Both the position numbers and the translations under genes were made by a program. A model generated the notes under the pieces. It saw nothing but the letters and a program-made list of their open reading frames with translations. It searched no databases and was not told the origin of the DNA. Positions 45,663-59,095 of a stretch of DNA of 64,000 bases are shown here, in pieces. Within the stretch, counting starts at the first letter, position 1. Each line of letters begins with the position of its first letter. The stretch comes from Micromonospora sp. WMMA1363 (GTDB taxonomy: Bacteria; Actinomycetota; Actinomycetes; Mycobacteriales; Micromonosporaceae): positions 5,510,001 to 5,574,000 of the forward strand of contig NZ_JAUALB010000001.1 in the NCBI RefSeq assembly GCF_030345795.1. Direction: 5' to 3'.

Positions 45663-45698
45663 ATGTCGTCGTACCGGTCGCTGCGAGTACTTACCTGA
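45663..45698 (+). CDS. ilvB leader peptide
   Basis: Eleven residues, MSSYRSLRVLT, then TGA. It holds Leu, Val and Leu codons in the last five positions, and the stop abuts hairpin 1 of the attenuator. Leaders of this kind precede ilvBNC in other actinobacteria, where stalling at scarce Leu/Val/Ile charged tRNA prevents termination. The ATG is 7 nt after the -10, so translation is probably leaderless. Confidence 0.65.
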   Translation: MSSYRSLRVLT

Positions 45699-45754
45699 GC
45701 GCACTCTCCACCGAGAGTGCGCTGGCCCCGTGCGTCCTGCACGAGGGCTTTTTT
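45699..45754 (+). terminator. ilvB attenuator (two hairpins and T6)
   Basis: Hairpin 1: gcgcactctc (45699-45708), loop cacc, exact complement to 45722. Hairpin 2: 45725-45733 pairs with 45739-45748 (9 bp with one bulged A), followed by TTTTTT at 45749-45754. The second is an intrinsic terminator before the ilvB start at 45841. GTGCG occurs in both hairpins, so the 5' arm of hairpin 1 could switch partners. Confidence 0.75.
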
Positions 45755-45840
45755 GTTGCCATCAGAACCCGCCGGCGCGGGCCCCGCCCGCGTCCCACCG
45801 CTCGAAGCCGCACCCACTCCAGCCGAAGGCCTGAACCGCC

Positions 45841-56764: not shown

Positions 56765-57232
56765 CTACCTGACGGTTCCTGCGGTGCCCGGCGGGATGGC
56801 CGAGTACGTGTCGCCGTAGTAGCCACCGAGCTTGTCCCGGTAGGCCGGGTCGGTGTCGGCGGTCTCGTCGAACTCGGGCGCGGCCTTGATCTGGTCCTTG
56901 TTCCGGTCGACGAAGACCTTCCGTTCGCCGTGGTCGACGTGGTTGACGGTGCCGGCAGGGATCATGACCTTCTTGCCGAAGACCCATGGACCGGTGTCCA
57001 CCACGAGGTAGCTGGAGTTGACCTCGTGGCTGGCCTGGTCCACCTTGCCGATGCTGCCGTCACTCGCCTCGACCTTGTAGCCCACCAGGTCCGCGCCGGT
57101 CACCCCGGCGTCGTCCCGGTAGCGCCATGGGTCGAAGGTGCCGCCGGACGCGCCGCCCGGGAAGGTGTCCTGCCCACCGGCGACGAGCGGGTCCGGTGTC
57201 CCGTGGGTCGGCTGAGGGTCGAGCCGCTCCAT
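56765..57232 (-). CDS. PRC-barrel domain protein
   Basis: 155 residues. After a disordered N-terminus (about 1-40), the PRC-barrel reads LVGYKVEASDGSIGKVDQ, then SSYLVVDTGPWVFGKKVMIP and AGTVNHVDHGERKVFVD. The end DPAYRDKLGGYYGDTYS is common in actinobacterial members. PRC-barrels occur in RNA-processing and photosynthetic proteins; the stand-alone type has no known role. AGGAG lies about 9 nt before ATG 57232. Confidence 0.8.
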   Translation of the reverse strand: MERLDPQPTHGTPDPLVAGGQDTFPGGASGGTFDPWRYRDDAGVTGADLVGYKVEASDGSIGKVDQASHEVNSSYLVVDTGPWVFGKKVMIPAGTVNHVDHGERKVFVDRNKDQIKAAPEFDETADTDPAYRDKLGGYYGDTYSAIPPGTAGTVR

Positions 57233-57384
57233 GGCGTTTCATCTCCTCTTCGACTGGTCGGGGGTTGGTGCCTGTCCACCCCATGTCCTACCCCGTGTCG
57301 AGATCGCTACACCTGTCCGCACCGCCGGTCCTCCACCACCGTCCCGATATGTGGGTTACTCCTCCCAAAACTGGCGTGGGGTGG

Positions 57385-57390
57385 CAGAGT
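57385..57390 (+). promoter_or_regulatory. -10 candidate CAGAGT of the cimA leader
   Basis: CAGAGT ends 7 nt before GTG 57398, the same spacing as the ilvB leader. No good -35 is seen. Confidence 0.35.
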
Positions 57391-57397
57391 GTCGACC

Positions 57398-57430
57398 GTG
57401 ACCAGCACCTCCCTGATTATCGACACCTAG
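57398..57430 (+). CDS. cimA leader peptide with tandem Ile codons
   Basis: Ten residues, VTSTSLIIDT, then TAG. ATT ATC occur side by side four codons before the stop, with ATT a rare codon in DNA of this GC content. An upstream GTG at 57389 in frame would add three residues. The following hairpin and T-tailed terminator make this an attenuator leader. Ile codons fit control of an isoleucine-pathway enzyme by isoleucyl-tRNA. Confidence 0.65.
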   Translation: MTSTSLIIDT

Positions 57431-57488
57431 CGCGCCGGCCCCCTCCGCCGAGCGCGCAGACCTCCCGCATCCCGCGGGGGGTCTTTTT
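57430..57488 (+). terminator. cimA attenuator
   Basis: GCGCGC at 57430-57435 pairs with 57452-57457 (hairpin 1). Then 57459-57468 pairs with 57474-57483 (10 bp including one T-G) and is followed by TTTTT at 57484-57488. The cimA ATG is 24 nt further. A terminator just ahead of a gene implies regulated read-through. Confidence 0.75.
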
Positions 57489-57511
57489 GTTGGTTGAGAA
57501 AGGACCCTCCC

Positions 57512-59095
57512 ATGACGTTCCAGGTCTATGACACGACCTTGCGCGACGGCGCGCAGCGCGAGGGGCTCAGCTACTCGGTGGTCGACAAGCTCGCGGTGGC
57601 CCGGCTGCTCGACGAGTTCGGCGTCGGCTTCATCGAGGGCGGCTGGCCGGGCGCGGTGCCGAAGGACACCGAGTTCTTCGAGCGGGCGCGCGCCGAACTC
57701 GACCTGAGACACGCGGTGCTGGTCGCGTTCGGCGCCACTCGCCGCGCCGGGGTGGGGGTCGCAGACGACCCGCAGGTACGCGGCCTGCTCGACGCCCAGA
57801 CGCCGGCGATCGCCCTGGTAGCCAAGGCCGACCTGCGGCACGTACAGCGGGCCCTGCGCACCACCGCCGGCGAGAACCTCGAGATGATCCACGACACCGT
57901 GGCTCACCTGGTGGCCCAGGGGCGGCGGGTGTTCGTTGACGGTGAGCACTTCTTCGACGGCTTCCGGTACGACCCGGCGTACACCGCGGCGGTCGTGGAG
58001 ACCGCGCTTGCCGCCGGCGCCGAGCGGTTCGTGCTCTGCGACACCAACGGCGGCATGCTTCCCTCCCACGTCACCACCGCGATCGCCGACCTCACCCACC
58101 GGCTCAACGTGGCCCCCGAACGACTCGGCATCCACTGCCAGAACGACACCGCCTGCGCGGTGGCCAACACCATCGCCGCCGTTGAGGCGGGCGTGCGGCA
58201 CGTCCAGGGCACCGCCAACGGATACGGGGAGCGTCCCGGCAACGCGGATCTCTTCGCCGTCGTGGCGAACCTTCAGCTCAAGCTCGGGCTGCCGGTCCTA
58301 CCGGAGGGCTGCCTGGGGCAGATGGTGCGGGTCTCCCACGCCATCGCCGAGATCGCCAACATCGCCCCCGACACCCACCAGGCCTACGTCGGGGCCGCAG
58401 CCTTCGCCCACAAGGCCGGGCTGCACGCGAGCGCGATCAAGGTGGATCCGCTGCTCTACAACCACGTGGACCCACCGGTGGTGGGCAACGACATGCGGAT
58501 CCTCGTCACCGAGATGGCCGGCCGGGCCAGCGTCGAGCTCAAGAGCCGAGAGCTTGGCCTGGATCTGGCCGGCCATCCGGAGACCCTGACCAGGGTCACC
58601 AAGCGGGTCAAGGAGCTGGAGGCCGGCGGCTGGTCATTCGAGGCCGCGGACGCCTCCTTCGAGCTGTTGGTCCGCTCCGAGCTGTCGGACGCGGCACCGG
58701 CGCGGCCGTTCGCGTTGGAGTCGTACCGGGTCCTGGTCGAGCACCGGGAGGACGGCGCGGTGGTCTCCGAGGCTACAGTCAAGATCAGGGTACGCGGGGA
58801 GCGTGTCATCGCCACGGCGGAGGGGAACGGCCCGGTCAACGCGCTCGACGAGGCGCTGCGGGTCGGCCTGGCACGGCACTACCCGGAGCTGCGCACCTTC
58901 GAGCTGGCCGACTACAAGGTACGGATCCTGGAGGGCAGCCACGGCACCGGTGCGGTGACCCGGGTGCTGGTGAAGACGTCCGACGGCGCCAACCGCGACT
59001 GGACCACGGTGGGGGTGCACCCCAACGTCGTGGAGGCGAGCTGGCACGCGCTCGTCGACGCCCTGACGTACGGGCTGGATCGGACGTGGGCGTGA
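57512..59095 (+). CDS. cimA: (R)-citramalate synthase
   Basis: 527 residues, HMGL-like TIM barrel with a C-terminal LeuA allosteric domain. FQVYDTTLRDGAQREGLSYS at the start is the citramalate-synthase form of the motif; GWPGAVPKDTEFF, GIHCQNDTACAVANTIAAVE, NGYGERPGNADL and HKAGLHASAIKVDP follow. It joins acetyl-CoA and pyruvate to give citramalate, feeding 2-oxobutyrate and isoleucine without threonine. The regulatory domain implies feedback inhibition. AAAGGA lies 8 nt before ATG 57512. Together with IlvBNC, IlvD and IlvE it covers the isoleucine route. A closely related LeuA function is less likely. Confidence 0.88.
   Translation: MTFQVYDTTLRDGAQREGLSYSVVDKLAVARLLDEFGVGFIEGGWPGAVPKDTEFFERARAELDLRHAVLVAFGATRRAGVGVADDPQVRGLLDAQTPAIALVAKADLRHVQRALRTTAGENLEMIHDTVAHLVAQGRRVFVDGEHFFDGFRYDPAYTAAVVETALAAGAERFVLCDTNGGMLPSHVTTAIADLTHRLNVAPERLGIHCQNDTACAVANTIAAVEAGVRHVQGTANGYGERPGNADLFAVVANLQLKLGLPVLPEGCLGQMVRVSHAIAEIANIAPDTHQAYVGAAAFAHKAGLHASAIKVDPLLYNHVDPPVVGNDMRILVTEMAGRASVELKSRELGLDLAGHPETLTRVTKRVKELEAGGWSFEAADASFELLVRSELSDAAPARPFALESYRVLVEHREDGAVVSEATVKIRVRGERVIATAEGNGPVNALDEALRVGLARHYPELRTFELADYKVRILEGSHGTGAVTRVLVKTSDGANRDWTTVGVHPNVVEASWHALVDALTYGLDRTWA

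Follow-up and report, generated by a model that had tools for sequence, protein, structure and literature searches.

In the trp and ilv attenuators of Escherichia coli, a leader ORF preceded by a Shine-Dalgarno sequence carries its sensor codons inside region 1, and regions 2 and 3 form an overlapping antiterminator. Here, we describe a candidate attenuator of the actinobacterial citramalate synthase gene cimA. As in the E. coli systems, the ribosome would stall at codons for the end product; at cimA, however, the sensor codons lie 11 nt before the hairpin rather than within region 1.

Leader peptides are in print for actinobacterial ilvB, leuA, leuS, trp, and cys genes (PMC1262725, PMC8079986, and PMC13236596). 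In the passages of these sources that were accessible, the ilvB attenuators resemble the cimA locus in having a short ORF with branched-chain codons, hairpins, and a U-tailed terminator, but they carry mixed Ile, Val, and Leu codons, whereas the cimA leader precedes another gene and carries Ile codons. According to the accessible part of PMC8079986, the Streptomyces lividans leaders ilvL and leuL2 are leaderless by RNA-seq; for ilvL this agrees with what is proposed for the cimA leader. The leuL2 leader of leuS is also similar in its leaderless 12-codon ORF, hairpin, and U-run, but unlike cimA it has Leu codons and serves an aminoacyl-tRNA synthetase gene. In the three-hairpin attenuator of Corynebacterium glutamicum ilvBNC, as presented in the accessible text of PMC11857589, the antiterminator and the terminator are adjacent at their bases, as are the two hairpins at cimA; the C. 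glutamicum bases overlap by GCC, whereas in the predicted fold at cimA the two hairpins have no base in common. The Corynebacterium ilvB-II motif, in the portion of PMC10272879 available, likewise combines a stem (P1), a terminator (P2), and a branched-chain amino acid uORF.

cimA is not among the eight leader peptides tabulated for S. lividans (accessible part of PMC8079986), and Seliverstov et al. (2005), in the accessible part of PMC1262725, reported no conserved structures 5' of other amino acid pathway genes. Among the best-ranked titles and abstracts of a search that lay mostly outside the subscription literature, none dealt with attenuation of cimA or of ilvA in actinobacteria. An initial annotation of this DNA regarded attenuation of cimA by Ile-tRNA as not known to be described. 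No relevant passage was contained in the accessible parts of PMC4833913, PMC2965389, PMC2864571, and PMC12452182.

The window is the whole 64,000-nucleotide stretch of Micromonospora sp. WMMA1363 DNA that was analyzed. The following features were assigned at cimA.

57382..57390, forward strand: -10-like promoter element TGGCAGAGT, recognized by sequence, 7 nt 5' of the leader GTG.
57398..57430, forward strand: putatively leaderless leader ORF of 10 codons, GTG to TAG, encoding MTSTSLIIDT; a conserved short ORF with a GTG or ATG start.
57416..57421, forward strand: adjacent Ile sensor codons, ATT (57416-57418) and ATC (57419-57421).
57430..57457, forward strand: hairpin H1 (GCGCGCCGGC...GCCGAGCGCGC), from folding and family covariation; its 5' arm begins at the G of the TAG and its 3' arm touches the terminator.
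57458..57488, forward strand: intrinsic terminator T, from sequence, covariation, and folding, with an 11-pair stem (57458-57484) and a U-run (57484-57488).
57512..59095, forward strand: cimA, citramalate synthase, with its ATG at 57512 (TIGR00977, 598.6 bits; cut-off, 450).

Thus, the 10-codon ORF with adjacent ATT and ATC codons and the hairpin followed by a U-tailed terminator just before cimA, both proposed in the initial annotation, are present as described. The 5' arm of H1 thus begins within the leader stop codon (57428-57430), and 23 nt separate the end of the U-run from the cimA start codon. The upstream neighbor, a PRC-barrel gene (56765-57232), lies on the minus strand, divergent from cimA; T therefore serves no upstream gene and is located after the promoter region of cimA and ahead of the gene itself. 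Taken together, the anatomy, conservation, covariation, sensor-codon match, and geometry of the locus point to an isoleucine-responsive, leaderless, ribosome-mediated leader-peptide transcription attenuator of cimA, a reading to which we assign a probability of about 0.85.

For comparison, 57 representative loci were used to build a covariance model, and 202 cimA loci, including species repeats, were aligned (177 distinct sequences). The loci were picked by a terminator anchor and by GCG after the sensor codons, so the geometry counts below are biased by this choice, and the model was built from the same pick. Five loci without the anchor string (L070, L098, L100, L119, and L131) were dropped from 207; by eye, all five had the element and adjacent Ile codons. 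Among L001-L227, L176 was left out because the script found no cimA start, and L149-L167 were not counted: L150-L167 come from other classes, and L149 comes from a genome of the class that has cimA without the element. An intrinsic terminator between promoter and gene was present in 207 of the 208 loci of the class with a cimA start in L001-L227 (202 by script and 5 by eye), the exception being L149.

In its own genome, the element at cimA was matched with an E value of 2.1e-26, and the next best match was at 0.27; three weak extra matches were rejected by eye, as they lay inside or next to coding sequence and had no matching leader. All 121 genomes of the genus had one match each (E ≤ 0.001), 16 to 89 nt 5' of cimA on the same strand. 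The initial annotation had proposed an alignment of the Ile codons and the terminator in related genomes, and both were kept in the genus (121/121) and in the family (89/89 loci with a cimA start, from the best 90 of a longer match list whose last entries are the most distant), so that the loss of conservation named there as a refutation did not occur. Across the class, 184 of 296 genomes had a match at E ≤ 0.01, counted anywhere in the genome and not by position: 174 of the 236 with cimA versus 10 of the 60 without it. The other 62 of the 236 genomes with cimA gave no match at this threshold. cimA lay directly downstream in 35 of 40 class loci fetched around matches and in all 29 of the loci L232-L260. 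These results support the view that the putative attenuator is widespread in actinomycetes. The genomes compared include f4 and g48, which we take to be Streptomyces-like. By eye, some second matches in other genomes looked like chance: one beside a tRNA-like stretch (L364), one lone terminator (L365), and two inside coding sequence (L367 and L368).

Of the 202 loci, 182 had the promoter motif TGG[CG]ANNNT 6 to 8 nt 5' of the leader start codon, with a spacing of 7 nt in 171, and the start codon in these 182 loci was GTG in 176 and ATG in 6. The initial annotation called the ORF leaderless; the conserved spacing between promoter and start codon favors this, while the transcription start site itself is placed by that spacing. 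Because the promoter belongs to the conserved block, it could be asked whether the block is merely the cimA promoter with its transcription start, next to an unrelated terminator, and the ORF a by-product. We consider this very improbable. GTG and ATG starts are exchanged, the position of the stop codon varies while the frame is kept, and the sensor codons are retained while their neighbors vary. Moreover, the stems of H1 and T have compensatory changes, and since the upstream gene points away, the terminator can act only on cimA.

All aligned cimA leaders contain Ile codons. The sensor pair was Ile-Ile in 193 of 202 loci (ATT ATT in 167, ATT ATC in 14, and ATC ATT in 12), and in the remaining 9 only one of the two codons was for Ile, the other being for Leu, Thr, or Met; the corresponding numbers for the 177 distinct sequences were 145, 14, 10, and 8. 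In 176 of the 202 loci, the leader ended with a TAG four codons past the first sensor codon, and in 187 the last sensor codon started 11 nt before H1. Across 110 cimA genes, ATT accounted for only 17 of 1,648 Ile codons (about 1%). Because ATT is so rare in these genes, its choice at the sensor appears to be selected or structurally constrained.

The two stems showed changes on both sides at 9 of 17 pairs, compared with 1.6 (standard deviation, 0.8) in shuffles, and 96.7% of the cells in the stem alignment were able to pair. The inner part of H1 differed among genera with pairing kept, for example, GCGCGCTGAC/GTCAGCGCGC, GCGCGCGCAG/CTGCGCGCGC, and GGCGTTC/GAACGCC. The predicted gap between H1 and T was 0 nt in 189 of 202 loci and 1 nt in the other 13. 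When the H1 region was shuffled by single bases, the gap was 0 nt in 37% and 1 nt in 15%; abutting hairpins thus also arise in a third of the folds of random sequence of the same composition, a point against the attenuator reading. The element gave no match to a T-box riboswitch model. No Rfam (release 15) family reached its gathering threshold anywhere in the window, and the ten low-threshold matches within 57300-57520, none of them T-box, were far below threshold and chance-like (best, ar14, 26.7 of the 58.8 bits required).

The 202 loci were folded with the ribosome edge set 13 nt into the RNA from a given codon. The 3' arm of H1 was predicted to pair upstream with a mean probability of 0.996 without a ribosome and 0.989 with a ribosome at the first Ile codon. 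With a ribosome at the second Ile codon, the mean was 0.67 (above 0.5 in 192/202), H1 being two pairs shorter. With a ribosome at the stop codon, the 5' arm was covered and the mean fell to 0.46, with values above 0.5 in 43 of 202 loci that reflected short residual stems. The predicted probability of T was at least 0.885 in all 202 loci without a ribosome or with one at either Ile codon; in the stop-codon state, it was at least 0.9 in 195 and below 0.5 in two, L124 and L125. Forcing the left arm of T to be unpaired cost at least 5.0 kcal/mol in all 202 loci; this test misses alternatives that use the left arm, which are covered by the pair probabilities with the same two exceptions.

Thus, in 200 of the 202 loci, none of the ribosome states gave a predicted competing antiterminator that excludes T, and in this respect these loci depart from a classical trp-type attenuator. 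By comparison, a terminator-exclusive anti-terminator has been proposed for Mycobacterium tuberculosis ilvB1 (accessible part of PMC13236596). The initial annotation's reading of the locus as an attenuator is upheld by the conservation and the codon match; a classical antiterminator did not appear in these 200 loci, and the response to isoleucine is one that we infer. The cimA element is placed, with support from these comparisons, among the known leader-peptide attenuators as a candidate member whose antitermination step may differ from the classical kind.

Classical attenuation could still operate if an overlapping antiterminator formed whenever H1 is not fully formed, for example, between the pyrimidine-rich loop of H1 and the right arm of T. 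The loop in the window, CCCCCTCCGC, is able to pair with GCGGGGGG, and a loop-to-terminator pairing has been proposed for the ilvB-II motif (accessible portion of PMC10272879), although there most of P1 lies within the uORF and the P1 loop takes part in the antiterminator, whereas co-adaptation of the loop is unsupported at cimA. Over 143 distinct pairs, duplex energies between the loop and the right arm were no better for native partners (-14.3) than for permuted partners (-14.6) or a shuffled loop (-14.0). In L124 and L125, the loop was predicted to pair with the right arm of T and to replace T once the 5' arm of H1 was covered (probability of T, 0.02). This happens with the ribosome at the stop codon, whereas induction by Ile starvation would need the reverse, and T was still predicted in the other 200 loci in every state. 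Overall, we regard classical attenuation as unlikely.

From this anatomy, we infer a sequence of events that covers the start site, translation, stalling, premature termination, the isoleucine response, and the role of H1. Transcription would begin at or next to the GTG at 57398, and the leaderless mRNA would be translated at once. With ample Ile-tRNA, the ribosome would reach the TAG at 57428-57430, cover the 5' arm of H1, and hold H1 open, so that T could fold and RNA polymerase would be halted near 57488. With the ribosome stalled at the Ile codons, H1 would form ahead of it and might stop the base of T from closing within the exit channel of the polymerase, resulting in read-through. Steric antitermination of this kind, in which T is blocked by a hairpin that directly adjoins it, with no linker and no base in common, is proposed because H1 is predicted to survive stalls at either Ile codon and to open at the stop codon, and because an overlapping antiterminator was absent from the predictions for 200 of 202 loci while the abutment is conserved. 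It is a plausible step but the weakest of the sequence, and one that we place somewhat below even odds. If the attenuator reading is true, the committed step in making isoleucine via citramalate joins the genes under leader-peptide control, and this compact, leaderless system of about 90 nt with abutting hairpins should be useful for studying how an upstream hairpin blocks an intrinsic terminator.

The same layout was found at other genes.

45663..45757, forward strand of the window: sister leader of ilvB, with an ORF, a hairpin, and an abutting U-tailed terminator (25.4 bits with the cimA model; predicted gap, 0 nt).
L357 2364-2464, L369 2471-2566, L361 308-403, and L366 297-387: leaders of leuA and leuS that have Leu codons and abutting hairpins.
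L321, L322, L323, L326, L328, and L378-L381: element with a single Ile codon before an ilvA-like dehydratase gene in family f79.

The partner leader that the initial annotation placed at ilvB is thus real; its ORF runs from ATG at 45663 to TGA at 45698 and encodes MSSYRSLRVLT, with Val (GTA) and Leu (CTT) codons. Including this one, 13 ilvB leaders with Val, Leu, or Ile codons were collected, for example, MSSYRSLRVLT, MRVITLVLRGRAG, and MRIPRLVVG. Two leuA leaders (MKHLLLIESARH and MTNLLLT) and two leuS leaders (MQTTVRLLAGPR and MSTQSLLLDQPR) had Leu codons, the leuS leaders being of the same layout and matched by the cimA model. The leuA genes, the leuS genes, and one ilvB gene exceeded the NCBIfam cut-offs. 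Among 28 non-cimA leaders, the gap between H1 and the terminator was 0 nt in 22, 1 nt in 4, 2 nt in 1, and 5 nt in 1, the last coming from a fold cut inside the 5' arm. Two of the 28, with Ile codons, preceded a small ACT-like gene, whose ACT_4 match was below its cut-off; they lie at L273 3032-3136 (ATC ATT ATC) and L274 3032-3130 (ATC ATT), and the protein may serve as the regulatory subunit of an enzyme in a branched-chain pathway.

In all ten genomes of f79 with a match, the match lay, by coordinates, just 5' of an ilvA-like gene. Nine of the ten leaders were read and had one ATT codon each (e.g., MPLFLMVIT and MQLHLMAIT). In these ten genomes, the region 5' of cimA itself gave no match to the cimA model. 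The best NCBIfam matches of the ilvA-like gene were threonine ammonia-lyases, all below their cut-offs; for the gene at L279, the scores were 299 bits against a cut-off of 496 and, for TIGR01127, 285 against 378.75. The gene probably encodes the biosynthetic enzyme, and if this is true, a threonine dehydratase, the alternative entry to isoleucine, would in one family probably be controlled in the same way. The Micromonospora genome also has an ilvA-type gene (G000:C1:5206740-5207876; TIGR01127, 452 bits, over the cut-off) without the element, and both routes to 2-oxobutanoate may exist in this genome.

The sensor codons thus vary with the gene that follows: cimA and the ilvA-like gene have Ile, ilvB has Val, Leu, or Ile, and leuA and leuS have Leu. 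As the initial annotation expected Ile codons to be the sensor at cimA, the retained Ile pair and this tracking of the downstream gene's product are in its favor. They also bear on whether T is a constitutive or generally translation-coupled terminator, with an ORF that senses any slowing of translation rather than isoleucine. The rare ATT codon may slow ribosomes in any medium, and the isoleucine response at cimA is a prediction, but the codons change with the gene, and we consider such a terminator improbable. Against codon sensing, changes to the codons of the S. coelicolor ilvB leader had no effect on regulation, as stated in the accessible part of PMC1262725. The attenuator at cimA, if real, bears on this unexplained result and on the supply of branched-chain precursors in antibiotic producers. 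Most broadly, the loci could represent a class-wide actinobacterial design in which a ribosome-gated abutting hairpin blocks the terminator sterically without an overlapping antiterminator, with a scaffold reused at cimA, ilvB, leuA, and leuS by a change of sensor codons and moved from cimA to the ilvA-like gene in one family. In full, this design is rather unlikely, its probability being limited because the ilvA identity falls below the family cut-offs.

Outside the class, a short ORF with at least three Ile codons before cimA was flagged by script in 10 of 18 loci (L150-L167). Five of these (L159, L160, L162, L164, and L167) were discounted, since by eye they looked like the upstream gene's end or a frame-shifted reading of it. 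In the other five (L153, L154, L156, L158, and L165) and, by eye, in L157, the Ile codons were clustered beside a stop codon that lay within a hairpin unlike H1. No U-run was seen at these six loci, and their Ile-rich ORFs possibly act through Rho-dependent or translational control. As judged from the ORFs, these six of the 18 loci lend independent but weaker support to isoleucine sensing at cimA.
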